Shown: positions 14,303 through 49,500 of the stretch, in pieces
Numbering within the stretch: position 1 is the first letter of the stretch
Layout: each line of letters opens with the position of its first letter
Assembly: GCF_037975245.1 (NCBI RefSeq)
Contig: NC_092564.1
Coordinates: 21,181,984-21,245,983 of the forward strand
Origin: Apostichopus japonicus
Taxonomy: Eukaryota > Echinodermata > Holothuroidea > Aspidochirotida > Stichopodidae
Direction: 5' to 3'
DNA length: 64,000 bases
Notes under the pieces: generated by a model
Told to the model about the DNA's origin: nothing
What the model saw: only the letters and a program-made list of their open reading frames with translations
Database searches by the model: none
Program-made: the position numbers and the translations under genes

Positions 14303-14727
14303 AATACTGTAGTTGATGGCCTCCCAATTTCTAATTTTGTTTCATTGTAGTGGGGAGCAATCGACTCTGTGAATCGTCTTTTCACATGATGTTTTGGCAC
14401 AGCTGCAAAGCAGTGTTAATTAACAGGTTGCTACCAGCCTTTAGGGAAGTTGCTAAAGTCTTACATTAAAGTTTTACTTACATCTGGTTTCCATTGTAAC
14501 TAACTAAATGATAACATTATATTTTAAAAAAAGTTCCAATGACAAGTATTCCTCTCTAGAGAGCTTAGAATTCATAAATATAAATTTCATGCTGACTTAA
14601 TATTTGTATGCAACTTTGGTGTTTCAAACATGTTGCCAATTTTTTGTTTTTCTCGAAAAGAATTGACAGAAATTTGCTGTTTGTTCCCTGCATGGGATAA
14701 AATGTGATTTTTTTTATCCCATTTTTA

Positions 14728-16876
14728 CAGGGGTCGAAATTTAGAATATTTACCACTATTCCAGCGGAATAGTGGATTTGAAAATACACTATTCCGTGTC
14801 ATTTTCCACTATTCCTTTGAAACTTTAAAAAGAAAAAAAATAACATAACAAAATTATATGTTGAGTCTTCTGTTGGGCTATTGATAATCATTAGTGTTTT
14901 GTGTACTGAGGCAAGAAAGCCACTCACAAGGGCAATGTCAATGGCTAGTTTCGCACACTTCAGGGTATACGGGTCACAAGGACACCCACGGCCCAGCGCG
15001 GGGAGGTTGCTGTGATAAATCAGCCTCGCGGGAATGTTTTGAACAATATTGCCATTCCACATTTTTATTTGAATTGATATTGTATGTCAGTTAGTAAACG
15101 TTTTCTTTCGTATGAATTTGACTTCAGTTCAGCGTTCCCACTTCCCTCTAATGTGCAGGATTCCCTTCAACTGACTCAGTAATCCAGCAAAGAAAACATT
15201 TGTCTGCTGGAAATCACTGCATCGTTTTCTTGCATTCGCGTTAAGTTAAACTCAATGCACAACGTATTCACTTTTCTTCAAAAAAAAATCTGAAAATCAG
15301 TAGAGAAATTACCAATTGTGTACGAAAAGAAAGTTGGTACACCTTCCAAATTTTACGAAAAGATTGAGCAAAACACTTTCGAAAAATTCACGCAAATCTG
15401 GCATATCGTGCTAAATGCAACTAATGTCATGTTAACAAGGCGCTAGTACACCCATCTATGAATAAACCGTAAGACCACATCTGGTGTAAAGCGGGAGAAA
15501 AAGTATTTTCTAGAATTTCCAAAAATACGCAAAAATAGTATCCTACCATAGTTAAGTGTATAGCAAATAGCCTAACCACCTCGTCGGTTACGGATCACAC
15601 GTAACTACAAAACACAACTAATTTTATTTTGCGAAGTTGACGTTTTCTACAAGAACATGGAAACAATATTTAGCATATAGTGAATCATGCCAAGTGGCGT
15701 AAAACATGGCATTACCAGGGTTACTTTCATAAAGATGGCCAAAGCTATAGGGGGGCTTGAGGTGTGTTTTACTTACCTAAATGTAACGGGGATATTTTAC
15801 CTACTTGTCTTGAACGTCTAAGATAATATTCCGCACTATAACTTTACCGATCCTTTACTAACTGACCTAATTAGTTCTAGAATGGAGCCAAAACAGTTAA
15901 ACTCCGTGTAACGTTTCTTGGAAACATGCCAAAAATTTTAACAAACAGGTGTTACACAGGGGATGAGCTCACAGTTGTTTGACAAGGTACCTGGGGAAAT
16001 TTGCAGCACTTGTGTAGCCTAACGTAGTATTTAAATAGGGTTAAACACTGCAGTTGTGATGTACGTATATTCATTGTTAGGCTAGAATGGGGCTTTGCCG
16101 AACGTTGTTTGTTTCATAATATCGGAAGTTTTGTAAGTTAAACTTTTTAAAGATTGTAAGACATTTTAAATCTCTTTTCATACCATAATATTGCTACTCC
16201 AACTTGTCATTTTAAAATTTTCATCAGTTTCGTGACAATTTAATTTCCAAAATTTATTATTATTTTGCATCTTCAACTGCTAACTTTTAATCGCCAGACA
16301 CGCAAAATTACCAACATTTTCCGGGGGCCTTCGCCCCTGGACTCCCACAAGCATAGGCGTAGGAGCCTTATTTGATTTGGGGGGCTGTAACGACTTGCCC
16401 GAAAAATATAACCAAAATCGGGAAATCGGCAGCAGTTTTTAGTGTGTTCGCGGGAAATTGAACAAGGATATCCAACACTGTACTACCTGTTACACACGAG
16501 GTGATAATTTTCCCTACATACGCGATGGTATACGGAACGTGTAAAGTGAAATCAATTGGAGGATAATGTAAGGCTTGCTATACTGTGCAAGTGCAGTTGG
16601 CTACGGAACATGTATGTACTGTACGTAACTGCAACTCACGTGTAAAGAGAGTTTCTTTTGTATTTCTGGGCAAGTTTTTACGCCCGGGAAACGAATAAAA
16701 TTAAAATTGCTGGCTGACTAGTGACAGGCAAGTAAATTTAGATGGATTTGTAAAAGTTTGTTGTTAGCTATCACTTTTAGCACTATCCATACGGAATAGT
16801 GAACCCAAGCAACTTGGTATTCCGTTCATGATTTCACTATCTTTGGATAGCGGAATAGCGTAAATTTCGACCCCTG
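14728..16876. mobile_element. hAT-like non-autonomous element inside copy A
   Basis: The ends are inverted: CAGGGGTCGAAATTTA at 14728 and its complement ending at 16876. Beyond 16 bp the ends diverge but both are packed with CACTATTCC/GGAATAGTG motifs in alternating orientation, like subterminal transposase-binding repeats. An 8-bp duplication is not clear (CATTTTTA against AATTTATG), so superfamily assignment is tentative. No transposase exon seen. An unrelated end-like motif CATAGGCGTAGGAGCC lies near 16353 and may be a nested fragment. Confidence 0.6.
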
Positions 16877-17058
16877 AATTTATGATCAAGTAACCTTGAT
16901 ATTCCATGGATTAATGAACAATTTCAGATTGATTCTCATTACACTTTTATTGAAATGAAAGCCTAAGCTCTCCAGATCCCATTGACATAGTGGTTTAGGG
17001 TACTTTATTCAAACTTTGCAGAAATGATACTATGACTTGGCATAAAAATTCCACATTC

Positions 17059-17215
17059 TCACAGTCTTGATAATTTAAATCCTTTATACTGTTCAGATGG
17101 TAAAGCTTCTCTAATCCTCCTTACTGCATAGGATGGGAGAACAACACAAATCTCCTTCCCTAAAAACTGCTAGCTCATCCATGCAAGTTGTCTGAATGCT
17201 CTGTGTCTGTATTTC
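17059..17215 (-). pseudogene. P2X7-ballast-like domain, C-terminal exon, copy A
   Basis: Downstream exon of the minus-strand element gene. After a TTTTACAG acceptor the frame reads KYRHRAFRQLAWMS, then an in-frame TAG, then QFLGKEICVVLPSYAVRRIR and EALPSEQYKGFKLSRL before TGA. This matches the end of the cytoplasmic zinc/cysteine domain at the C-terminus of vertebrate P2X7 and of many invertebrate proteins without a channel. The exon joins the upstream exon (17743-17963) in exact phase. The internal TAG is shared with copy B, so it predates the duplication, hence the pseudogene call. Confidence 0.6.
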
Positions 17216-17742
17216 CTGTAAAATAATCATATGAAAACCAGCTATAAAAGATGAAGACACATAAAAGCTTGGTAGCCATCTGGGGACGTCAAATTTTAAA
17301 ATAAATTTCTATATGATTTCCAGAATTTGCTTGGCCCCTAAATCTGCCTCCCCTAAAGTAAGCCTATCTATGCCATTTATACAAACTGATCGTTGTATCT
17401 CGGGGACTAAAATTTGTAAATGGATCGTGCACAAGCATGGTGGACATTTTTTGTGTGGCAATTGGTTTCATGGCTCAGTGTTAATTACTTCTATGTCAGT
17501 CAGCATGATAAGGGTTAACCTCAAGGGCATTACACCAGTTTTTGGACAAAATGACCTAATCAGAAGCAGGTTTTGAACATGGTGCACAAATTTTCCTGAT
17601 CAAATCTATATCTTAATGTTATTCCTTTCACAACGAAACAACACTAAACTATGAATACACCCTCTGTATTGTTACATCTTTCAACAGCAGGTCAGAGCAA
17701 TGAATAAAGGTATACAACAAAAATAATGTATTCTATACTTAC

Positions 17743-17963
17743 TCTTGGATCCTGTTTTCCTGTGCACATCCACCATACTGTTGACAGTACATGTAGTAGG
17801 CTGCCTGAAGAAACAATGGGTTCAGGCACATAGCTTCAAAACCTGGGGGTAAGGTGATGCATGCAGCACCTTCTTCATCCATCACAGTCCTTACTTATCT
17901 ATTTCGCTGCAGCATGTACACTCCCTTGATGTAGGCATCACAGCACACTGGCCACAATGACAC
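17743..17963 (-). pseudogene. P2X7-ballast-like domain, cysteine-motif exon, copy A
   Basis: Read leftward after a TTTACAG acceptor, the exon begins with a C-x-C-G-x-C type cluster, continues through MPT and a second Cys cluster (C-T-C-C-S-E-I-D), then after a frame change reads VMDEEGAACITL, PGFEAMCLNP and AYYMY(C/R)QQYGG before a GTAAGT donor. This is the characteristic motif order of the P2X7 C-terminal zinc-binding domain. The frame change near GATAAGTAAGG is present in both copies. Length (221 bp) and both splice sites are identical in copy B. Confidence 0.6.
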
Positions 17964-18668
17964 CTGTAAACAATACAAACCAGTTCAAATAATAAAGAGC
18001 CAATTCAATGACTTCATACAGACCTCAATTATTGGGGCATACTGTACTAACATGTCAAAATAGAAAAGGGGCACCTCTGAAGGGCAATCTACCGTTGAAG
18101 CTCCTTAAAAGTAACATCCCTAGCAAGGAGGGGATAGCCTCTTCTTAGAAGTCTTGCCTCTGTTGGGACAATGCTGCAAAGGAAAATAAAACAGGCCGAT
18201 GTTGCCTCGTTTCCAACTCTTTCCCACTTCTGAATCCATTCACTAGATTGAGAAAATCTGGTTATGAAATTAGCTCAAGCGGAAATGACAAAAAGCTGGT
18301 GTGAGGTGCCACCTTCTCCCCCCCCCCCCACCCTTTCCCTGATGTGTGGTAACTCACTAATTTGCCACTACAACTGCTAGGAAATTAATAATAGACCACC
18401 TCTGAATTTGTTGTGCACTCTTCCAATTGGCTCCTTCAATCTACTAACCAAATGAAATATGTCTGTGTGACATGTGCTGCCACAACTTTTAAGGAAAATA
18501 GTAAATTCCTTAACTTAACTCGACCGCACTTTCATGTTAATTTTGCTGCCCCATCAATAAAATGGCTAGCTAAGAGTATGAGCAAAGTTAGGAAACATTT
18601 ATCGGTTCTAGGCCTAACTAGTGACACAACTATCCTATAAAAATATAGTACGATAGGGGTAACGTTAC

Positions 18669-18774
18669 CACGATCAATTTCGACATCGCTGTCCGATCCC
18701 GCTTCCTCTTCGCTGGTCTCCGGTTCGAATATGTAGGGAAACACTTCCCTAAGATCATCCACCATGTCCTCCAT
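18669..18774 (-). CDS. acidic first exon of the P2X7-ballast-like element gene, copy A
   Basis: ATG at 18774 opens MEDMVDDLREVFPYIFEPET followed by an acidic Ser/Glu/Asp stretch (SEEEAGSDSDVEID), ending at a GTAACG donor in phase 1. From general knowledge, invertebrate proteins with the P2X7-type zinc domain often begin with a short PYxFEP motif and an acidic tail, so this is a plausible first exon of the gene at 17963-17059. The phase does not join directly to the cysteine exon, implying an unrecognised middle exon. The exon is missing from copy B, which has a deletion of about 0.95 kb here. Confidence 0.45.
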
Positions 18775-19785
18775 TTCCCTTTCTTTCTTCGCTATTGCTA
18801 TCTAAATACTGTGTGTCAATGCCACTGGCAGCCATTTCGCGATATGTTTAAGCTATGCTGTGCTGTGTATATATGCGTAATACAGTGCGTGTATAGAAAC
18901 TATGTGGTAGCAATAAGCACATGCGAAGATATCATGCACTTTCGACTTGGTAAACAAATGACGTCATTTGTTTTCGGCTTTCCCTGAACGAGTCAATCTA
19001 GCCGATTTTTGCGGAGTTTATGTTGCTTGATAGGAAGAAAATGCAAGGAATTTATGAAAAAAGAAGTCAATGGATGTTTTGTTCCATGTCTTATGTATCA
19101 ATTTGTGATTTTTCATCTTAATCCAAATCTTAACTTTCTTGTAACAGACTGCTGAAAAAGGTAATATTTTCGAGAAGTTTGAGATTTCTACATACCCAAT
19201 GCACTGCGCAGAACATATACAGTTTGCAATCTTCTGCGCTCCCCCGTGACGTCACTGAATCTATTACGTAATAGTACTTTTTACCGATTTCTACCCCTTT
19301 GGAGACGGAAAAAAATCGCGGTGTTGGGTTTTTGTTAATGTAAGAATTGTTAAGTTTAATATTATGTAAAGTCAAGTCTACGTGTCGCTTGACCTTTAAA
19401 AGGTCCGACATAATCAATACGAAGTCTTGACCACGGCCGTGTTGGCTGTACATAACTTGGTTGCAAAGGAGATATGGGTGGAGCTGGCCTACTTTCTTGG
19501 CAAATGGGTCACTGCTTGACCAAGTCGTCAATTTCATCATCCAACTTTGGCCACCAAATAAATGCGCGCGCTTAGCTTTTCATAGCCCCCCCCCCCCCCA
19601 ACCGCCCTAAATGGAGTTCGGGTAACTCCCTGAGCAGTCGTTTACAACCTTCACTTGGAACAATGACCCGATTTCCCCAGAGTAAGCATCCATCCTGTGT
19701 AGTAATTCATTTTTGGTTTCGATGATAATCGTAACCTATGCATTCATGCAGGCAGAGACTGTGTGTGTATGTGTCTTTGTGTGTC

Positions 19786-20230
19786 TGTGTGTGACGTCTC
19801 GCTTGTAAACACAATATCTCAAGAAGGAAAGCGTGGACCAATCCACATATTTGGTGTATAGGAGTACCACATTGAGTAGAAGAACCCTATTGTTTTGTGG
19901 GGAGGTCAAAGGTCATGTTGGGTCATCAGGGGCCAAATAGTGATAACCTTGTAAACACGATAGCTCAAGGAGGTAAGCTTGGACCAATCTCATATTTCGT
20001 GAGTAGGAGAAATACAGTTAGGAGCAAAAATCTATTTTGTGTAGGTCAAAGGTCATTTGGAGTCATCAGGGGTAAAATTGTGTAAACCTTGTAAACACGA
20101 TATCTCAAGAAGGAAAGGGTGGATCAATCTTGTATTTCGTTTGTAGTTGGTACACGTTCAGTACAATATTTTATTGAGGTCAAAGGTCAGTTGGAGTCAC
20201 CAGACGCGAAATTGTGGAAACCTTGTTTTA
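19786..20230 (+). repeat. AGGTCA-rich tandem repeat array (about 3 units of 137 bp)
   Basis: Each unit contains CTTGTAAACACGATATCTCA, then GGACCAATC, an ATTGAGTAGAAG-like segment and AGGTCAAAGGTCA. Perfect AGGTCAAAGGTCA copies lie at 19903, 20043 and 20177. The same family recurs at 34655, 44490, 46255 and 53850 and in reverse orientation elsewhere. Confidence 0.85.
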
Positions 20231-20925
20231 TAAGCTACCGTATCTACCACTGACCAGCCTATCAGATACCATGTGCGTAACGCCTCATACGAATGGGGGG
20301 CTATTAGCAATTGGAAATGAGCTTATGAGCATTCGTAGAATCTAAAACTGAAAAAAGGAAAATTCGAGCATATTTGCATTGGCTTCAACGTGCCGCTCGG
20401 AAGCCTTACTTTGCGTGAAAAAAAGGGTGTACTATTTGTAGTACAGCGGTTTCATTCAAGGGACGTTTTTCGTCGTATTTATTTCAGGTTGAATATAGTT
20501 TCGTTGTGACCAGGTAGCGTGTATGAAACTTAACAGTTCGTCTTCTTAGATCTTTTACTATGACCGATCTCATTAGTGCGATATAATTGTGTAAAACGGT
20601 GTAAGTTTGGCAGTGAGTTCACGAGCTTTTGTCTTGATCGGCTGTTGATCTCAATTTGTGTAGTCTCTTCCACTAGTTTCGTCAAGTTTATGATTATGGG
20701 ACAACTTGAACAAACCTGGCTAGGCCTGTGAGCAATTTTATATTGCTTAGGCCAGCAACGGTTGGGAAGAATAAGGTTCGTTAACACAACGTGAAGAATA
20801 CCTGTCAGAATACCAATACACTTAAGATGGCAAAACATCTCCTTAATAATTTCTTAAGGCATTTCCTACTGGCTATATGTGTCATAAGTCGCAAAGTATA
20901 GAACAATTTAAGGAGTTTTGAGACA
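20231..20925. other. gene-free stretch in the spacer between Kolobok-like copies
   Basis: No exon, RNA gene or bounded element recognised. Confidence 0.5.
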
Positions 20926-21860
20926 AGTTTGCTGTTGTTGCTGCTAGGATTTTTGAAAGATAGATGCTCTTACAACCTCAGATTTTCATTGCGTAAAATA
21001 TCGCTTTGATTTAGGCAGTGTAATGGAGTAATAGCGATATTTTTTCGCGCATCACTCTGCAGCTAAAGGCAAGATAAATAACGGGGCAAATGTAGAAGTC
21101 GCGCTAATCTAGTAGTGGTTCAAAGTAGCAGTAATTGGTACTGTATAGTCTTAGGACTCGCGCACACCTAGCTACTGTATATAAAATATACCTAGTACTA
21201 TAGGAGCCATAATGTAACAGAAGCCAAGCTTTCTTTTTAGGGTGTTTTACAGACGTTTTACTTTAATTGTTTAAGACATTACAGTAGGCCTTGCTGCTTA
21301 TTTATAATTTTGCGTCATGTTTTACTTTGTTCAACACTTACTTTTGGTGGGGAAAAAAAGTCATGCTGCAAAGAATCATGACTTTCTAATGCGCAATAAC
21401 GTAGCACCATGCATCTGCCTAAGTGCCTAACCTTTGTTCATAGAAAGTATTGATGTTGCAGATCTGTACTTTGGAGACTTGAAGAACAATCAGAGGCCTA
21501 GTGGCGAGTCGGGAATTTGGCGAGTAGATTTTTAGTCACGGTCACCAAATAGCTAGTTCTTTTAAAAAATATCGTCGAGGCCTGAAAACCATGACAACTT
21601 GTTCTAATGGTAGAAATCATGGATACTATTCATACATGGCAAATGGATTTGCCATATTGATTACAATAATCCTATTGCTTGTGAGGTCAAATCTCCTATA
21701 GGTCACCAGAGGTAAAACTCTGGAAAACCTTTTACATGATATCAAACGATGAAAATCGTGGATACCTCTAATACTTGGTGTGGATTCATAACCGTTGACT
21801 ACAAGACCCCTATTATTTTTTATGAAGGTGTGTATAGCCACGTACAGTAGACTGACCTGT
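20926..21860 (-). repeat. dispersed repeat, inverted relative to 33715-34660
   Basis: The segment is a diverged reverse complement of 33715-34660 (for example GCACCATGCATCTGCCTAAG here, CTTAGGCAGATACATGGTGC there). A third partial copy is at 63590-64000. The left part (21600-21860) includes reversed units of the AGGTCA family. No ORF of interest. Confidence 0.65.
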
Positions 21861-22300
21861 GTTTATCATGCAATATCATGTTATTGTAACAGCCATGGGC
21901 GGCGATCATGGGGGGACGAGGGGACATGTCCCCCCAATATTTTAGGTGGGGGATATAGTATCTAATATCCCCCCAATATTTGGTGGCATAGTTTTGTTTT
22001 AGCATTTTTTTGTATTTTTTTATGTTATCGCTAGTAATTTCAAAATAGAAAATGCTTAGATGCAACTTACAAGGCCTGGAAAGTGCCATTTCCAGCGATC
22101 TGGGAGGCATTTTCGGCCAAAATTTTCTTTTGCGCTTCGCGCCAACCTATGGTGGCGCTACGCTTAGATAGTTTGCCTACAAGCTTTGCCCCTCCCTTGG
22201 CAAATTCCTCGCAAGGCGCCTTTCTAACCGTGTCACAATTTGTTACTATATATGACCGAAAGTAGTTTTTACTTTTTTTCGAAATGAATAGCTAGACGGA

Positions 22301-22303
<3 letters not shown>

Positions 22304-22382
<79 letters not shown>
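22304..22382. repeat. (TA)n microsatellite
   Basis: About 39 uninterrupted TA dinucleotides. The IYIYIY open frame over it is an artefact. Confidence 0.95.
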
Positions 22383-22385
<3 letters not shown>

Positions 22386-22639
22386 AACGCTTTCCGCTTC
22401 GGTGGTATGGTGAAGTACCCAGTTGGCAATTGAGGAAGGGGGTTGTAGAAGAGACTCGAGGACACCGTTGAAAAGAAGTACACTAACAGTGCATTAAGAG
22501 TTCAAAAAGTATAATTAGATAAACAATGTACCTGCCGTACATCTTTCGTAAAGTATAATAAACAAATAACATATACAGATAGTAATACAATAAAACCTAA
22601 ACACAATAACAAGGGTGGCGTACATTAACTAGCCCTGTC

Positions 22640-22851
22640 AATGCAAACTAGGCGCTGCGTCGAAGACAACGCAGGCACAACGCAGGCTAAATATCGGTAC
22701 AGCCTCAAGGGCGACGCAGCGTACGCGTAAGGACAACGCAGCGCAGCTAACGATGAGGTTCGTCAGCCCGCGAACCATACGCTGCGACGACCTTGCGCAG
22801 GCACAAGCAGTTACGGAGCGCAGCTGCAGAATGCATGCAGGCACAAGCAGT
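22640..22851. repeat. GC-rich degenerate repeat (GACAACGCAGGCACAA type)
   Basis: Several imperfect copies of ACAACGCAG and GCAGGCACAA(G)CAGTTACG. Base composition is clearly more GC-rich than the surroundings. No gene identified. Confidence 0.5.
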
Positions 22852-23307
22852 TACGCATATGGCAAGCCATGTGGGACAAACACCGTATAATATATCCGCG
22901 TATTAATTCGAATATATACGCGTATTAATTCGAATATACATGTGTTGTACATGTGTAAAGTTTCGCTTTTTGAGGCGATCTCGCGAGCCCGCCAAAACAT
23001 TTATCGTTGGTAAATGTACACAGCAAGAGCGGAAATGTTTTTTCGTGTATATTCTAATTAATCCGTGCATATATTGGATTTAATCACCATATGTATTTTA
23101 TTTAATACGTGTATATATTCGAATTAATGCGCTTATATATTCGAATTAATACGTGTATATATTCGAATTAATACGCGGATATATTTAAGCCATGTGATTG
23201 GCTAATAATATATACGCGTATATATTCCAATTAATACGCGTATAAATTCCAATTAATACGCGGATATATTATGCAGTGTTTGTCCCACGTGGCTTGCCAT
23301 ATACGCA
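22852..23307. mobile_element. IS3EU-type MITE with 6-bp duplication
   Basis: Element 22858-23301 is flanked by perfect 6-bp duplications TACGCA (22852-22857, 23302-23307). The roughly 55-bp inverted ends begin TATGGCAAGCCA(T/C)GTGGG. The interior is repeated ACGCGTATATATTCGAATTA-like units in both orientations, so the element can fold on itself. TATGG ends and a 6-bp duplication match the larger element at 5264-10816. No coding capacity. Confidence 0.75.
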
Positions 23308-23906
23308 GCGCAGCTGCAGAGTGCATAACTCGATTCTCTGCACAAGCCAAAAATAATCTAAGTCCCTGAAACAACCTACAAATTCGGCATAGATTCTGCC
23401 TAGCAACTAACACTAAATATACCCCAACTTAAAGGTCAAGCGACAACGTAGACTTGACTTTACATAATATTAAACTTAACAATTCTTACATTAACAAAAA
23501 CCCAACACCGCGATTTTTTTCCGTCTCCAAAGGGGTAGAAATCGGTAAAAAGTACTATTACGTAATAGATTCAGCTTTTTGTCATTTCCGCTTGAGCTAA
23601 TTTCATAACCAGATTTTCTCTATCTAGGGAATGGATTCAGAAGTGGGAAAGAGTTGGAAACGAGGCAACATCGGCCTGTTTTATTTTCCTTTGCAGCATT
23701 GTCCCAACAGAGGCAAGACTTCTAAGAAGAGGCTACCCCCTCCTTACTAGTGATGTTACTTGTAAGGAGCTTCAACGGTAGATTGCCCTTCAGAGGTGCC
23801 CCTTTTCTATTTTGACATGTTAGTACAGTATGCCCCAATAATTGAGGTTGGTATGAAGTCATTGAATTGACTCTTTATTATTTGAACTGGTTTGTATTGT
23901 TTACAG

Positions 23907-24127
23907 GTGTCATTGTGGCCAATGTGCTGTGATGCCTACATCAAGGGAGTGTAGATGCTTCAGCGAAAAAGATAAGTAAGGACTGTGATGGATGAAGAAG
24001 GTGCTGCATGCATCACCTTACACCCAGGTTTTGAAGCTATGTGCCTGAACCCATTGTTTCTTCAGACAGCCTACTACATGTACCGTCAACAGTATGGTGG
24101 ACGTGCACAGGAAAACAGGATCCAAGA
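23907..24127 (+). pseudogene. P2X7-ballast-like domain, cysteine-motif exon, copy B
   Basis: After GTTTACAG the frame reads CHCGQCAVMPTSRECRCFSE, then DK and a stop, and one base register later VMDEEGAACITLHPGFEAMC, LNPLFLQTAYYMYRQQYGG and RAQENRIQ, ending at GTAAGT. The order C-x-C-G-x-C, MPT, E-C-x-C, PGFEA, C-L-N-P, YRQQYG is that of the P2X7 C-terminal ballast/zinc domain. The frame change is shared with copy A. The exon ends in phase 2 and joins 25880 exactly. Which strand of the element hosts a functional promoter is unknown. Confidence 0.65.
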
Positions 24128-24200
24128 GTAAGTATAGAATACATTATTTTTGTTGTATACCTTTATTCATTGCTCTGACCTGCTGTTGAAAGATGTAACA

Positions 24201-25434
24201 AAACAGAGCAGTGGCGTAGGAAGGTACTTTTGAGTGGGGGGGGGGGGGCTGAAGACTGATGGCCGGTCTGGGGAGGGGTCTAAGCATAGGCGTATGGACC
24301 ATTTCAGTTTGGGGGGCAGAAATTTTTGTGCACGAAAGTTCCCGTTACACTATCTAAGCGGAGCGCCACCATCGGTTGGCGCGTAGCGTACAAGTAAATT
24401 TTTGGCAAGAAATGCCTCTCAGATTGCAGGAAATGGCACTTCTGAGGCCTTGCAAGTTGCATCTAAACATTCTTTATTTTATAATCTCACGTTTTAGAAA
24501 TTTACACTTCCCCAAAAATTTGGTAAATTAGAAGAAGAAAAATGGTAACATCACTTTGAAGGGGAAAAATAGGACAGTTTATTTTTTAAGCTCCTATTTA
24601 GTTACCGTATTTATTATTTTAACACAGTACTCAGCTACCTCCAGAAAAACATACATTGTTCAACGATCGACACGTAGGCGGGATAATGTCGCTGTGTCAG
24701 GTGAGACTGCAATTTGTCTCACAAAAAAGTACAAAATATAACAAAGAATATGATAAACCTGTACTTCTAGGCTTGTAGGCCCCCACCCCTTACCATCCAT
24801 GAAAAAGAAAATGTTTCTTATATACACTCATGTCGGAAATGTCCAGGTGTACAGTTGACTAGTTATAAAAAATAATCGTGGTAGCCAAGATGAGCTGCGC
24901 TTACGGTGGTGTTACACGGAAATATTCGGGCATCATGATGCTAAATAAAGTAAACATGGAATTGTCGGGCAAAAAATTGAAAAAGATCCGGGCAAGCTAC
25001 TGCATATTTATATATATATATATAAAATTCTCCTCTTAGGCTGCCCGAATTTTTCAGGACTTTTGCCCGAATTTCTTGTCCTCTGGAAATTAAGGGGGCA
25101 GTCTGCCCCCGCCTCATACGTCTATGGGTCTAAGGGGAGAGGTGTCCCTCTCCCCTTTGGAATTTTTTCCATTTCCAGGTAGCCTCAGATGCAATTTGGT
25201 GCAATATAGCACACTTCAACACCCACTCCACTTTGTAAACTTAATTTTGTATTTTCACCTGGCCTTAGATGCAATTTGGTGCTCCAAATGATTTTTTTTT
25301 TTCTCATTTGGAAATGAAAAAGGGGTTCTGACTTGCGAAGCGGGGGGCGGAATGATACTTCCGCCCGCCACATTTTTCACTGGGGGGCTGGCGCCCCCCC
25401 CCAGCCCCCCGGTTCCTACGCCCTTGATACAGAG
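24201..25434. mobile_element. hAT element with 8-bp duplication in the P2X7-like intron
   Basis: Element 24209-25426 begins CAGTGGCGTAGGAAGG and ends CCTACGCCCTTG; the flanking duplications are AAACAGAG (24201-24208) and ATACAGAG (25427-25434). Copy A provides the empty site (AATACAGAGGG without the insertion, near 17670), which proves this is an insertion. The 1.2-kb length and lack of a transposase exon show it is non-autonomous. It contains a further nested element. Confidence 0.85.
24277..25134. mobile_element. second hAT element nested inside the first
   Basis: Element 24285-25126 has ends CATAGGCGTATGGACC and (inverted) CATAGACGTATGAGGC and perfect 8-bp duplications GGTCTAAG (24277-24284, 25127-25134). 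It lies wholly inside the hAT element at 24209-25426. Interior includes GCCCGAA motifs and a short (TA)n. No transposase. Confidence 0.85.
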
Positions 25435-25879
25435 GGTGTATTCATAGTTTAGTTTTGTTTCGTTGTGAAAGGAATAACATTAAGATATAGATTTGATCAA
25501 GAAAATTTGTGCACCATGTTCAAAACCTGCTTCTGATTAGGTCATTTTGTCCAAAAACTGGTGTAATGCCCTTGAGGTTAACCCTTATCATGCTGACTGA
25601 CATAGTAGTCATTAACACTGAGCCATGGAACCAAATGCCACACAAAAAATGTCCACCATGCTTGTGCACGATCCATTTACAAATTTTAGTCCCCGAGATA
25701 CAATGATCAGTTTGTATAAATGGCATAGCTAGGCTTACTTTAGGGGAGGCAGATTTAGGGGCCAAGCAAATTCTGGAAATCATATAGAAATTTATTTTAA
25801 AATTGACGTCCCCAGATGGCTACCAAGCTTTTGTGTGTCTTCATCTTTTATAGCTGGTTTTCATATGATTATTTTACAG

Positions 25880-26036
25880 GAAATACAGACACACAGCATA
25901 CAGACAACTTGCACGGATGAGCTAGCAGTTTTTAGGGAAGGAGATTTGTGTTGTTCTCCCATCCTATGCAGTAAGGAGGATTAGAGAAGCTTTACCATCT
26001 GAACAGTATGAAGGATTTAAATTATCAAGACTGTGA
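25880..26036 (+). pseudogene. P2X7-ballast-like domain, C-terminal exon, copy B
   Basis: After TATTTTACAG the exon continues the upstream codon (GA|G) and reads KYRHTAYRQLARMS, TAG (25923-25925), QFLGKEICVVLPSYAVRRIR, EALPSEQYEGFKLSRL and TGA at 26034. The match to the terminal part of the P2X7-type domain (YRHxAYRQ, VLPSxAVxxIRxxxP, YxGF) is strong. The internal TAG occurs at the same place in copy A. Confidence 0.65.
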
Positions 26037-27985: not shown

Positions 27986-28608
27986 CAAGTTAGGGGACAA
28001 ACTAAAACGAATGACAGCGAATGACCGAATGACAATTGACTTTGTACAGGGTTAATTATCATTTGCGAATGACAGCGAATGACAACGAAGGACAGTGTTG
28101 AGTGGAGATAGAATGATTAACGGAGTGGAGTAAATGCGGTTATTGGTTTTCTGTGCAAAAATGATTTGAGGAAAATCGCATGTTACGTGGTTGCAGGGTT
28201 TTGGTGTAATTTACGGATAGAAACCACAGGGAAAGTTTGTGTGTGAGAATGCGCTTGAGTGCTGTGTTTTTTACCTCTGTAGATTTATATAGAAATATAT
28301 CTGAAGCCGTTTCAAGATTATAGTATTGTTAGTTTCTAACAATTAATATCGGAAAAATGACGTTTAATTTTTTTTTTTAAATCAGACTTACAATTTCGCT
28401 TACTATAAGGTGCGTTTTTTATCTTGTCCGTACTTTACTAGATCTAGATACCCACGAAATCTGAACTGTGATATCCGGTTGAAGCAAATGTCTGTGCTGT
28501 CGTTACTGTCATTCGTTTTAGTCAACGCATTTTTTTAGTGTGTACAACATATTGTCATTCGTTATGTGTAACGCAATTGTCATTCGTTTTAGTAACACCC
28601 CAAGTTAG
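27986..28608. mobile_element. Mutator-like MITE in copy B
   Basis: Element 27994-28600 lies between perfect 8-bp duplications CAAGTTAG (27986-27993, 28601-28608). Both ends begin GGG and share ACTAAAACGAATGACA at positions 9-24. The subterminal zones repeat GAATGACAGCGAATGACA. Copy A near 11950 shows the single CAAGTTAG empty site. GGG ends with 8-9 bp duplications suggest Mutator-like, but Merlin-type is possible. Confidence 0.75.
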
Positions 28609-33714: not shown

Positions 33715-34660
33715 ATGAACCAGAATGCAAAATGCATTGAAGTTTCGGTGACTTGCACTAGGCTTTTCCTTGTTAGTAACCAGAACTAGCTGTACAATAG
33801 AAATGGCCCGAACCACCATTTTGATACAACTACATGATGGCATAATAAACACAGGTCAGTCTACTGTACTGTACGTGGCAATGCACACCTCCAACAAAAA
33901 CAATAGGGGTCTTGTACTCAATGTTATGCATCCACACACTAAGTATGAGTAGTATCCACGGTTCCCATCGGTAGATCTCATGTAAAAGGATTTTCAGAGG
34001 TTGACCACTGGTAACCTTAATGAGATTGGACCTCATCATAAGCAACAGGATTCTTGTACTCAATATGGCAAATCCATATACTATGTATGAAAAGTATCCA
34101 TGATTTCTACCATAAAAAATCCATGTTTTGAAAGTTTTCAGGCCTCGACAAATGTATTTAAAGGTACTCCATTCGCCACTGCTCTTAGGCAGATACATGG
34201 TGCTAAGTAATTGCACATTGGAAAATTATGACTTTTGAACTTTTTTTCCAGCAAAAGTGTTGAACAAAGTAAAACATCTCAAAGAATAAAAAATATGCAC
34301 TTTAAAGTCTGAAACAATTAAAATAAAAACATCTGCAAAGAGGTCTATAAAGATAGCTTGGCGTCTGGTACATGATCCCTCATATAGAACTAGGCATATT
34401 CCGTACAGTAGCTAGGTCTGCGCGAGTCCTAAGCATAAACAGTACCTCACTGCTGCTTTGAACAGCTATTCGAATAGTGCGACTTAGTATATTTCCCAAT
34501 TATCTATGTTTTCATTTAGCTGGAGATTGGTGCGTGAAAAAATATTGCGATTACTCCATTACACTGGCTAAATCAAAGCAATTTTTTACGCAATGGAAAT
34601 CTGAGGTTGTAAAAGCATCTATCTTTCAAAAAGTCCTAGCAGCAACAACAGCAACTTGGA
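33715..34660 (+). repeat. dispersed repeat, copy 2 (see also 20926 and 63590)
   Basis: Nearly the whole segment is matched in reverse orientation at 20926-21860, and its first 400 bp in the same orientation at 63590-64000. It contains reversed AGGTCA-family units (CACCTCCAACAAAAACAATA). Ends are not defined and no coding is seen. Confidence 0.65.
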
Positions 34661-35535
34661 CCAATCTCATATTTCATTTGTAGGAGGACAATTTGAGTAG
34701 AAGAAGCCTATTGTTTTTAGAGGAGCTCAAAGGTCATTTTGGGTCACAAGGCATTAAATTGTGAAAAACCTTGTAAACACGATATCTCAAGAAGGGAAGC
34801 TTGGATCAAACTCATATTTCGTGTGAAGTACCACAATAATTAAAAGAACCCTATTGTTTTTGGTGGAGGTCAAAGTTCGTTTGGGGTCACAGGGGGTCAA
34901 ATTAAGAAAACCTTGTAAACACGATATCTCAAGATGGGAAGCTTGGGCAGACCCCATATTTGGGGTGTAGAAGTACCACATTGAGTATAAGAAGCCTATT
35001 GTTTTTGGTGGAGGTCAAGGTCATTTGGAGTCATCAGAGGTTAAATTGTGAAAACCTTGTAAACATGATATCTCAATATTGGAAGCTTGGGCAGATCTCA
35101 TACTTGGTATAAAAGTGTATAACATTGAGTAAAAGAAGCCCTTTGTTTTTGGTGGAGGTCAATGGTAATTTGGGGAGAATAGGTCAAATCGTAAACATGA
35201 TATTTTAAGAAGGGAACCTTGAACAGATCTGTATTTGGTTTGTAGATGTACCATATCAAATTTAAGCAGATATTATTGCTTTTGGTGAAGTTCAAAGGTC
35301 ATTTGAAGTCAACAAATGCCAAACATTTACTGCACTGCCCTCTTACCTGTATATTAACACTAACACACCTTCCTAAACATAATATTATCATGAAGGAAGC
35401 TTGGACAGATCACATATTTGGTATGTTAGTGTACCACATTGAGTACATGAAATAAGCCTAAAGTCGTGGACAGAAGTCAATGGTCGTTTGTGTTCACCCC
35501 AGGGGTTAAATTGTGAGGAATGTGTTTTCAGGAGA
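34655..35535 (+). repeat. AGGTCA-family tandem array, about six decayed units
   Basis: Units of about 140 bp with CTTGTAAACACGATATCTCA, AAGCTTGGA(T/C)CA, CCTATTGTTTTTGGTGGAGG and TCAAAGGTCATTTGG. Most AGGTCA direct repeats have one or two changes here (for example AGGTCAAGGTCA near 35013). More decayed units continue to about 36500. Confidence 0.8.
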
Positions 35536-43500: not shown

Positions 43501-46500
43501 AGGAGAAAAACTCTAAAAATGATGAATGACGATGACCACCCACTACTGTACGTGTGTCTGGACAAAACAGTGTTCTCTCGGAGTGGTAGGATGAGGCTGC
43601 CATTGGCCAGTACAATTAGGCATCCCTCTTCTTTTATTCCACAATGTATAAAACTTCATAATTTAAATGTTAAATGCTAAATTATCACTGTGCACTGTTT
43701 ATACATGTCCTGCTTTGTTTATTTGTTCTTGCCCTTTTGCAACTTTATAAGTATATTTGTATTTGTATAATACTGTTTTTATGCAAGTATTCAGTTACCC
43801 TCTGTGGGGTTTAATAAGTTTATCTTACCTTATCTTATTGTAATACTGTAAGTCATAATCAATTCTATTTTGATTTTAGGTGACAATTACTACCCGCCAA
43901 CTCCTTTCACATCTAAGTGGTATTCGGCATTATGAGAAAGTTGTCAGTAAGGAAGATACTTTGATGGTTACCTCTAATAGTACTAAAGAGTCACTTGCCA
44001 GAAAGAACTATGGATCAATATTGCAGGACTCTGACAGAACTAGTAACAATATCACCTCTCTGTCAGATACAACAGCCAGCTCTACCCATCTCAAGAAAAG
44101 AAACAAGGAGTCAGAAATTAGTTCAGGAATCAAGGAAAATGAAGACATTGGTGATGGCAAATATGTAGAGTTTTTCTCAAGGAAGAAATATGAAAAAGTT
44201 TCAGAAGCACTGGACCAATTTAAAGATGATCCACTGGTTAATAAACCAGGTGAAAATTAACATCTGTTCCATAGATTTAAGATGATAAGGAAACACATCT
44301 GTTTGAAAATTGGCAGGCAGGACCATTTTAAAGGAGGGTTAATAAATATCTTGCTCACTTTTGCCCTTTTGGTTACTTGCCATAGGCAGGCAAGTAACCT
44401 AGTCAAGTTGGCTTGTTTATGGGTGCATGTAAGAGAGTGTGTATGTGACACCCTATTTTCTAAACACATTTTTTCAAGATAGGTAACACCTGCAGTTTTC
44501 ATATATGGCGCATGAATTCTTCATATTAAGTACAAGAACTCTATTGTTTTGGATGGAGGTCAAATGTCATTTGGGGTCAGCAGAGGGCAAATGTGAAAAT
44601 CTCAAAAACGCTGTATCTCCAGGACCTGAACATCAAAAGAGCTCTTATATACATGGTATGATCGCCTTATGTAGTGTAAAGATTTTACACAATTTGGTGT
44701 AGGTCAAAGGTCATCAGAGGTCAAACCCTGAAAACCTTGTAAGCACAATATCTCAAGATAGGAAACATCACAAGATCTCATATTTGACATATAGCTTCCC
44801 TATAATGAGTACAAGATCCCTAATGCTTTTGTTGGAGTTCAAAGATTATTAAAGGTACTGTAAGCAGTTGTCAAAAGTATGAAAACTAAATGTTTTCTCA
44901 GAAGACCACAATTTGTCAAGGTTTATATGTGCATGGAAGATAACTCACGATATGAAGGGCAAAATGTCTAAATTTTTTATGCAGGTTAAACATATGAAGT
45001 CAGCAGAGATGCTGACTGAAAACATTGTAAACATGATATCGACAGTCATACTTTACACCACGATAATTAGGGTTCACAGTGTTAAATATTTTCGAAATAT
45101 TTGTAAATTCATCTTCATCATGTGTTCTGAACCTAATGTTGATCAGTGTTGACAATTATTAAACATTCTGAAAACTTTTTAAACATGATATGTCAAGAAG
45201 AGACCTTTGAACAGATCTGAAACTTCATGTGGAACACTCATATTATGTTCATGAAGCCTATTGCTTTGGGTGCTGGTACATGCATATCAATGAGTTGGCA
45301 GAACATAACATAAGACTGTCTAATTGTTAATTATAAATATTAAATAATTATAAACAATTAAAATAAATTAGCACCTCCATATGCTTAGGCCTGGTTTATT
45401 CTTTAAACAGAGTTGTTTTTATAAAGCTGGTACATGGGTACTGGTATGTCTTACTCCTGGTATATGTAATTAATTGAATTAAGCATAAGAAATATAAAAG
45501 AATAACTCAACCCACTTCTGTATGAAAGCTTGTAGATGATATAACATGATGATATAACATGATCTACATTTGAAAGTATGTTTAAATACAAGGTTTACAG
45601 GGAAAGCCATGTTTTCTTATCTGTTAAAGAGACAAGGTTTGAATGGAGAGTCACACTAAGCACTCTCTTTAATGTGTTAGTGTAAAATGGTATGATTATG
45701 CACATTTGCCAGTTTATTTAAAAACAGGTTTACAGGGAAAGAACATATTTTTTTTAATCTGTCAATAGTCAAGTTTTAAGAGAGATGTCAATCATGATGA
45801 CTTTTGCTGCTAGTCTGCCCAGAATCATTAAAGGATAGATAAACCCTAACATTTTCACTGATGCATATGATAGGGAAGGAAATGATAAACGACTACACCA
45901 AAAACTTACAAAGTCATCTTTCATTTTCAAGATATAATTGCTTTCATGTTCCTTCATATGTATGGAAGAGGACTTGGAAATAAGTCTAAAATGACATCAC
46001 AGATCCACTTGTGACTGGAATTTCACATTTTCTTAATTTCTCCTTCACCTGTTTCATTGGGTGTAGTGTCTGGGATTTTCTTTGTTGGATTATCAAATTT
46101 CTACATATCAGGTACAATTTGACATTGATTTTAGTGAAAAATATGTCCATTCATTAAGAAAAAATGAGTAACAGTTAAGATTTTTTTGTTTGTTTGCCTG
46201 GAAGTGGCTCTGTGACATCAGGAATTGTATAAATGGCAGCCCCTGATCTGACTCAAATATCGAACACCTTGTAAACATGATATCTCCAGTTAGGATGCAT
46301 AGATACCTTTCATACTTGGCATGTGGATGCGTTATATTGAATATGAAACCTCAATTGTTTTAATAGAGGTCAAAGGTCATCTGGGTCACCAGCGGTCAAA
46401 CTATGAAAACCTTTAAACATGATATTTCCAAGTAGGAATCATGGATACTTCTCATACTTGGTATGTTGATGCATCACATTGAGTTTTCCATGCCATAGTG

Positions 46501-49500
46501 TAATTGTACATCAAAATAGTGGTTCAGGATATTTCAATTATAAGAGCTATTTCTGGTGTACAAACAGAAGTATAGTGTAATGAAATTGTCGAAACCTTCA
46601 TGCAGTTGTGCATTCTGGTTGATTCCTTGCCAGAAGCAAAAGGAATCTTTGTGATGGCTTGTGTGTGAGTGAGTGTGCTCCTGTGTGTTTGTGTGATGCC
46701 TTGGCTTGAAAACACAACTTAAAAACCTACTGTATACTGTATGTAGAAGCACCTTATTGAGTAGAAGAACCACATTGTTGCTTGCGGATTTTCAAAGGTC
46801 ATTTGAGGTCCACAAAGGTCAAAGTCTAAAAACATTGTAAGAACAATAACTAAAAAATGTAAGGTGGACGAACTTATGTTGAAGCACCATATTGAATAGA
46901 AGAAACTCATTGCTTTCTGTGGAGGTTGAAAATCATTTGAGGTCAACAGAGGTAAAAATCTGAAAACCTTGTAAACATGTTAACTTGCAAAGTAGAAGTT
47001 GGATGAACTCCAAATGTAGTGCACCTTATGGAGTCGAAGAATCCTATTGTTGTCTGTGGAGGTCAAACATCATTTGAGATCAACCTAGACCAATGTCTGA
47101 AAACCTGTTAAGGAGGATAACTTCAAACCGTAAGGTCGATGAACTTTATATGTGGTATGCGGATGCACCATATTGAGTAGAAGAAACCATTTGCTTTCTG
47201 TGGAGGTTGAACATCATTTAAGGTCAACAGAGGTCAAAGTCAGAAAATTTTGTATAACTTCAAATTAAGCCTTTAGTGAAATAGATATTGGGTATGTGGA
47301 TGCATGTTAGGTAATGCAAGAACCATATTGTTTTTTTCAGGGGTCAAAGGTCATCTGAGTTCACCAGATGCTAAAGTGTTACAACTGAAGCTAATTAGTA
47401 ATTACCTTTGCAATGATCAAGTTAAGTGGAACTCTTTTCTAATGTTCTGGTACTTGACTTCAGGACACATTGTCCTCAGTTGTTCTATCAATTTGTTGAT
47501 TCCACATATAAACTAGTAAGGCTAGGAAACACAAAGCCTTTTGACTTCCAGAATGTTCTTTTGTTTTCTTATGCCATTTTAAAATTTCAAGACAAACATC
47601 ATCACACTAACAATGCTGGCTATATTTGCTTTTGTAATCTTTAGGAACAAAATTTCTTTACTCCACTCACGCTTGGACGTTAGTAAGTGCAGTTATTGAG
47701 TCAGCAGCTAAAAAGCCGTACCTTGAAGTGATGAAGGAGATGTTTGATGACCTGGGATTACACCATACACTACCAGATCAACATGCACTTCTTATACCAA
47801 ACAGATCAAGGTAAAAAATATTAAAAACATAGATACACCAACCTATAAATGAACATGTATATCTTATACCAAAACACAATGAGGTAATGAATGTTAAAAA
47901 CATGGGTACACCATACCCTACCAGACGAACATGCACCTCTTAAAACGGAACAGAGAGGTATAATTAACACTAAAACATGGGTACACCATACCCTACTAGA
48001 TGAATTGATCTTTAGTAAAATAACAGTTCTAATTTCATAAGTGAGGGAGTACAGTTGTTTATTCTGCAGAAGGTTGCAAAATTTCATAGCACATGAAAAG
48101 CTGTGTAATTTTTCATTAATTTGGAGTGTCAAATTGCCACATTACAGCAAGTCGTCACGTGCATAAATGTCTGCATTTTGTGAAGTCAGCAGCTCAACAA
48201 AGTACTGAGTTACATGAACATTGTAATATATCAACACAACCTTTGTATTCCATATAAAGATGTAAACTATTGACTTTCATTTTGAGCATCAAGTTTTATC
48301 CATGTCTCCCAAGGTTATACCAGAGAAGCAAGAAGACTAAAAAGTTGGAGAATGCACCATACGTGGATGTATCCAACAAGTGGGCTGGGGGAGGTTTCAT
48401 GTCGACCGTTGATGACTTAATCACATTTGCTGATGCCATGCTCTATAGTTACCAGTTTTCTGCTTCTTCTACAGGTAGGTTGGTAGAAGTTAAATCTAGT
48501 TTGTGTAGCAATACATCTTTCATTATTGTGGTAAAATACTTCTGCGAAAAAAATGATCTCATACCCCACAGTAGATGAAGGCTACTGTCTTTATTGAAGG
48601 TTATCAGAGTTCAAAGTGTGAAAACTTGGATTATTTATCTCATATTTAAGAAGTCGATGCCCCATGGTTGAGTACATGAAACCAGGGACGTCGCTAGAGG
48701 GTGGGGAAGGGGGGGTGGGGTCTCACACCCAAACTTGGTAAAACTGACGATAGTTGGAAAATTGGAGTGGGACAGTCGGAATTTCCGACTGTCGCACTCT
48801 AATTTACCTAGTCCTATTCATATATTCTTGTAATTGTGAATAACCTAAAAATTGAAAAATGTCAGTTAAAATTGACCTTTAATCAGTCATATTTACCACG
48901 TTTTCCTTTGCCACATTGTGGAATTGTATCTCGCGATCCTTATACTCCACCATACAAAACTTCTTATGATTTTGAATACTCTAAAAAAAATGCCTAATAG
49001 AACTTACCGTACAACGTTCGCCAGCTTCAATTTGGTTTATATATCTAAATTGCTATTGGGTGGGTTGACCCTGTTCGCTAGCTTCAAGTAAGTTAAGTAT
49101 ATATATATTGTCTCGATGGTATACGATTTAAAAAAAAAAGTGTCTATTTTATAAAAACAATCTTATTATCCCCCGTAGGACCTCTCGTGAGGTCGACGAG
49201 GGGTTAAACTCCTTTTGATTTGAAATTTAAATGATTAAAACACTCATTGCTAGTCAGTAGGAGTTTTAACCGTTACAGTACGTCTCACCGAACTCTTGAA
49301 TCTTTGCCAAAATTGGTTCGTATTTTATATTTTCAGACAATTACATCTTATACAGTTGTAGAAGATTGGTGTAAGACTATTTTGGCCAAATTTAGACTAG
49401 AATATATTTTATAGAAATAGTTCAGTGGTTATTTTTGTTCGCAGAATCGGGCACACATAATAATGTATAGCTTAGGAGTAGACGATTATCTTCCTCCGAA

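Follow-up and report, generated by a model that had tools for sequence, protein, structure and literature searches.

The stretch analysed here, referred to as the window, comprises 64,000 nt on contig 4 of the 671.6-Mb genome of Apostichopus japonicus and contains two copies of a transposable element, each with the remains of a KolX-type gene for a relative of the P2X7 ballast domain. The two intervals singled out by the initial annotation, 17059–18774 (−) and 23907–26036 (+), are inverted copies of one DNA, with blocks of 129–637 bases that are 96–100% complementary, and across the wider elements that contain them the blocks are 92–99% identical. Kol0 elements encode a transposase and an accessory protein, KolX, and the KolX of this lineage shows the cytoplasmic ballast fold (Kojima & Bao 2022, PMC9587614), a domain that has been described across animals (Rump et al. 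2020, PMC7016195).

Element borders, ends and genomic copies

Both intervals lie inside larger elements that run from TTAA to TTAA and end in inverted repeats (Table 1). The initial annotation had placed the exons in TTAA-flanked, inverted-repeat-bounded DNA; such ends were found, but at true borders wider than those it gave. The window-family ends read TTAA-AGGTCAAGCGACACGTA on one side and carry T in place of C on the other, the end sequence of the paired elements being AGGTCAAGYGACACGTA, and the termini of complete copies take the form 5'-AG...CT-3', starting with 5'-AGG. Three nested insertions (one in copy A, two in copy B) break up the window copies, and the longest undisturbed copies measure ∼6.2 kb.

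Further copies came from a DNA scan of the genome in which 40 of 116 candidates were scored, copy B not among them, so that the counts are lower bounds. Twenty copies were fetched (L009–L028), namely the 19 top-ranked among 41 other DNA matches and one weaker match. Taking these together with the two window copies, 8 show both ends and 12 a single end, and no end was found in L009 and L013, the missing ends being partly due to short fetched stretches. All seven complete copies shown with their flanks have TTAA and inverted ends on both sides, a result that is, for the TTAA, partly one of construction, as completeness was called by a pattern containing it; the flanks all differ from one another. 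Two copies of a sister subfamily, L031 and L032, which came to light through the ends of the element, also have TTAA and inverted ends at both sides.

With at most one mismatch, 168 genomic matches to the end sequence were counted (83 + 85), against 0 to a control read backwards. Pairing was examined for 100 of the 168 ends, reaching into contig 16: 74 form 37 facing pairs (31 C/T, 6 T/T) and 26 are unpaired, and 19 of the 37 pairs span 6.06–6.25 kb. KolX DNA matches total at least 42, with two places split into two rows each, and 27 lie on the contigs covered by these ends. None of these 27 is farther than 11 kb from an end, and 21 fall inside one of the pairs. Where this could be checked, the ballast domain is thus neither absent from the genomic copies nor confined to DNA outside their borders, and the association made in the initial annotation does not look accidental.

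An intron-split ballast-domain gene with shared lesions

In copy B, exon 2 is preceded by an AG acceptor ending at 23906 and followed by a GT donor after 24127, and exon 3 starts at 25880 and closes with a TGA ending at 26036. The intron between them has GT-AG borders and interrupts a codon in the same phase on either side. All seven motifs listed in the initial annotation occur in copy B when it is read across the frame change, but copy A departs in two of the seven (YCQQYGG for YRQQYGG and YRHRAFRQ for YRHxAYRQ). The claim of two phase-matched exons with the same motif order in both copies therefore stands for positions and phase, and in full for the motifs of copy B.

Homology to P2X7 was assessed with the Pfam profile P2RX7_C (PF20478). 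Exons 2 and 3 joined, from the sister copies L032 and L031, score 35.8 and 44.5 bits, above the curated cut-off of 23.5. No Pfam match was returned by either exon-2 piece of copy B on its own, or by exon 2 of L032 by itself. A genomic ballast protein, that of L029, aligns to exon 3 of L031 (E 8.7e-6), and the KolX of an element on contig 9 (L045) matches the P2X7 structure 6u9v (E 3e-23). A phmmer search of the joined L032 exons against PDB gave no P2X7 at E ≤ 1, and exon 3 of copy B found P2X7 there only at E 1.4, ranked after unrelated chains. As direct PDB searches were negative, the link to P2X7 is drawn through the Pfam profile and the genomic relatives. Translated whole in the three frames of a single strand, with X for each stop, copy L023 matched nothing in Pfam; even the known exon 3 was missed, and this test was left unused as insensitive.

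An acidic frame upstream (PYMFEPETSEEE) is probably exon 1. Of the 21 copies where it was found, most keep this frame open, and in several it closes at a GT donor of fitting phase; it has no Pfam match, the sister copy included, and the region is deleted from copy B.

Of the seven zinc-binding cysteines of the ballast domain, most are present in the sister copies. L032 retains CHCGQC, CRCC and CIT, and L031 retains CRCC, CIT and PSC but has lost one base within the first cluster. At the PSC position L031 has Cys, whereas L032 and the window copies have Tyr, the latter reading PSYAV. The window family resembles the P2X7 ballast domain (PF20478, 6u9v) in profile, in motif order down to the C-terminal YxGF and, in the sisters, in most cysteines, but it has no channel part and the window copies lack the PSC cysteine. 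ZCD/nanor-like proteins (PMC7016195) likewise have a ballast domain without a channel, but are described as genes.

Lesions were compared in an alignment of 24 copies, comprising the window two, L009–L028 and the T/T-class copies L031 and L032. In 22 of 22 copies of the window subfamily, exon 2 lacks the same single base and exon 3 has TAG at a conserved Trp codon; four of these copies (L012, L019, L020 and L023) have lost four more exon-2 bases. Neither the frame change nor the TAG occurs in the two sister copies, which are ∼88–92% identical to the window subfamily: exons 2 and 3 are open in L032, and exon 3 is open in L031, with Trp and Cys where expected. Because the lesions are common to all 22 copies, the parent of the window subfamily was already broken before it spread, which bears out the earlier proposal that the two window copies descend from an altered parent.

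Table 1. Features of the two element copies and their nested insertions, in window positions.
Feature	Positions	Strand	Remarks
Copy A, whole element, TTAA to TTAA	11326..19399	-	8.07 kb including nested insertion; inverted repeats and TTAA at either end; aligned to complete copies elsewhere
Copy A terminal inverted repeat + TTAA	11326..11346	+	TTAAAGGTCAAGTGACACGTA
Copy A terminal inverted repeat + TTAA	19379..19399	-	TTAAAGGTCAAGCGACACGTA
Copy A probable KolX-type exon 1	18669..18835	-	acidic N-terminal part, PYIFEPETSEEE; inferred; frame from first ATG broken
Copy A KolX-type exon 2	17743..17963	-	CHCGQC...QENRIQE; frame changed
Copy A KolX-type exon 3	17059..17215	-	KYRHRAFRQ...YKGF; contains TAG
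Insertion nested in copy A	14725..16877		2.15 kb; inverted ends CAGGGGTCGAAATTT / AAATTTCGACCCCTG
Copy B, whole element, TTAA to TTAA	23429..29239	+	5.8 kb; internal deletions and two nested insertions; TTAA and inverted repeats at ends
Copy B terminal inverted repeat + TTAA	23429..23450	+	one extra base, and for this reason left out of the genome end count
Copy B terminal inverted repeat + TTAA	29219..29239	-	
Copy B KolX-type exon 2	23907..24127	+	frame changed
Copy B KolX-type exon 3	25880..26036	+	contains TAG; Pfam P2RX7_C, E 1.2e-4, 22.5 bits, profile 144–192 of 192
Insertion in copy B KolX intron	24209..25426		1.2 kb; 8-base near-duplication AAACAGAG/ATACAGAG; ends CAGTGGCGTAGGAA / TTCCTACGCC; presumably hAT-like
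Insertion in copy B	27994..28599		0.6 kb; 9-base flanking duplication CCAAGTTAG

KolX genes and transposases elsewhere in the genome

A genome scan with PF20478, in which 150 of 471 candidates were scored and the window copies were not among them, returned at least 150 P2RX7_C matches, all above the cut-off and the 16 best stop-free. At L029, a transposase frame adjoins an open KolX frame, and a search with this transposase gave at least 93 matches (79 of 320 candidates scored). KolX matches of ≥ 50 bits number 41, including near-identical duplicates that are not all independent; a transposase match lies within 5 kb of 29 and within 10 kb of 31. All 31 neighbours are convergent, and the chance expectation within 10 kb is 0.11. 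The remaining 10 lack any transposase match over the latter distance.

Six stop-free KolX-type matches of ≥ 86.9 bits (C17:16725225, C17:1719889, C15:2159299, C19:11523823, C17:20260281 and C2:5853532) have no transposase match within 10 kb; they may be domesticated genes, or else partners whose transposase has diverged.

A pair of elements on contigs 9 and 21 (∼10.8 kb, 98.7–99.5% identical) was traced to TTAA ends, with similarity ending 3 bases beyond the TTAA on one side and ∼10 bases beyond it on the other. Its inverted repeats, AGGGGCGTGGTCGT / ACGACCACGCCTCT, are flanked by TTAA, and in the contig-9 copy both KolX and a transposase of 548 residues have open frames. The L029 transposase matches the Pfam Mutator-like transposase family PF20700 (33.2 bits); the L045 transposase has no Pfam match at E 0.1.

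Three places deserve mention for their likeness to one another: at L029, L030 and L041 (contigs 5, 9 and 15) an open KolX is accompanied by a transposase frame of 550 residues, and the three are 99.3–99.9% identical over 7 kb, which suggests very recent copying or segmental duplication, the compared 7-kb stretches falling short of the element borders. A separate set of 61 of the 150 scored P2RX7_C matches has one TGA each and nearly equal scores (28.9–32.5 bits). The two members that were read, L043 and L044, are 94.7% identical over 885 bases and have a common stop near the conserved exon-3 Trp. This set is probably a second amplified KolX-bearing family.

Elsewhere in the window, diverged tandem units of ∼140 bases occupy 19802–20226, with AGGTCAAAGGTCA at 19.9–20.2 kb, and partly similar stretches lie at 34655–35516, 44522–44850 and 46253–47304.

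Identity and mobilisation of the window family

The window copies belong to a transposon family marked by TTAA sites, short inverted ends, many copies, an internal ballast-domain gene and common lesions, in a genome where other elements have TTAA ends and keep the frames of both KolX and transposase open. Its Kolobok-like identity, as proposed in the initial annotation, is supported by the TTAA sites, the 5'-AG...CT-3' ends and the KolX gene. The family resembles Kol0 (Kolobok-1_XT type) in its TTAA sites, in ends that follow the Kolobok rule of 5'-RR and YY-3' termini, and in its KolX ballast gene (PMC9587614), but differs in that no transposase was detected in the element and in that KolX has at least one intron and is broken in the 22 window-subfamily copies read. 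The DDD/E transposase with a C/DxxH motif by which Kolobok elements are recognised was not found in the nine copies scanned, and one frame of L010 gave a weak HTH_Tnp_4 match (E 0.022) below the cut-off. As far as tested, the family looks non-autonomous, and because no transposase of its own was found, it is filed as such and as a Kolobok-like derivative only.

We consider it very probable that both window copies are dead elements of a non-autonomous, Kolobok-like family of DNA transposons, ∼6.2 kb long, that carries a dead, intron-split KolX, was mobilised by cut and paste, a related element providing the transposase in trans, and had in KolX a once useful gene that decayed later. The family would have inherited KolX from a Kol0-type ancestor. 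In the full-length ancestor the gene would have been useful, and its decay may have set in once a copy relied on the proteins of other elements. Movement would have been of the cut-and-paste kind, and the window-family ends were probably cut in trans by the transposase of a related element that recognises AGGTCAAG ends. For KolX itself, the likeliest role would be that of a zinc-stabilised protein that assists either the transposase or the binding of DNA.

Several observations weigh against this reading. A profile of nine genomic transposases found no transposase trace in nine element copies (best E 2.2); its positive control (9e-56) was a fragment of a profile member, and a very diverged or spliced transposase could escape it. 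None of the 93 transposase matches starts within the 37 end pairs on contigs up to 16. Exon 3 of copy B, read with X for its stop, aligns to the very end of the P2RX7_C profile and scores slightly under the curated cut-off (Table 1), so that the profile search suggested by the initial annotation reached the cut-off with the joined sister exons but not with the window copy alone. The genome was also to be searched for TTAA-bounded elements with an intact version of the gene: ends and pairs were found in number, and the sisters are free of the frame change and the TAG, but neither is whole over three exons, L031 having lost one base where exon 2 begins and L032 having a shifted exon 1. By eye, the L031 and L032 proteins differ at many residues and may be decaying too. 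Elements elsewhere were called open from their open KolX and transposase frames only. Finally, the repeats of the contig 9/21 element differ from those of the window family past the first bases, and this element is therefore a relative and not a proven partner of the window family.

Other origins were weighed. A piggyBac-type element, which likewise uses TTAA, would fit the sites at which the window-family copies lie, yet we hold this to be very improbable. piggyBac termini read 5'-CC..., and this is not what the window-family ends show, starting as they do with 5'-AGG. A KolX-like part has been reported from a few piggyBac families, but those piggyBac proteins are without most of the conserved cysteines (Kojima & Bao, PMC9587614), which the sister copies largely keep; the 5'-AG...CT-3' ends fit the Kolobok rule of the same source, and the KolX genes of this genome adjoin Kolobok-type transposases. 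Accidental cargo, that is, a host ballast-domain gene (nanor-like, fish) taken up on one occasion by a transposon with no relation to Kol0, is an explanation to which we attach equally little weight. KolX could be cargo in an element without a detected transposase, and about a quarter of the strong KolX matches (10/41) have no transposase neighbour; the other 31, however, are coupled to transposases in one convergent layout, and since KolX is the known second gene of Kol0 (PMC9587614), inheritance is simpler.

That the exons resemble the P2X7 ballast domain by chance, without homology, has next to no probability. The score of copy B alone and the PDB search with the joined L032 exons could be taken in its favour, but the joined sister exons pass the Pfam cut-off, the splice sites and phase fit, and the genomic L029 protein, a KolX, aligns with L031 exon 3. 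We regard chance resemblance as excluded.

A variant concerning the ancestor appears unlikely. It might have been a KolX-only element that spread without a transposase of its own while KolX was intact; KolX itself would then aid the mobilisation of the ends, as a helper in cis or in trans, and could be the gene that a minimal element keeps. The second set of KolX matches with one TGA each, of which two were read, may repeat such a KolX-only pattern.

For the preferred interpretation, a dead, non-autonomous Kolobok-like family with a decayed KolX, part of the ground is already covered in the literature. A Kolobok-carried ballast domain as a possible source of that of P2X7 is published, with P2X7 arising from a P2X4-like gene fused with KolX (Kojima & Bao 2022, PMC9587614); the suggestion in the initial annotation that a transposon could have brought the domain to a channel gene is supported by, and already contained in, that paper. 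The main text of Rump et al. (2020, PMC7016195) has no word starting with "transpos". Within the literature searched, Repbase not included, the window family, its lesions and the genome-wide linkage of KolX with transposases are new detail. As independent evidence on the scale of a genome, they support what has been published on the ballast domain of P2X7, namely that it is a transposon protein. Both copies in the window are dead, and it is the elements with open KolX and transposase frames that provide material for learning the function of KolX.

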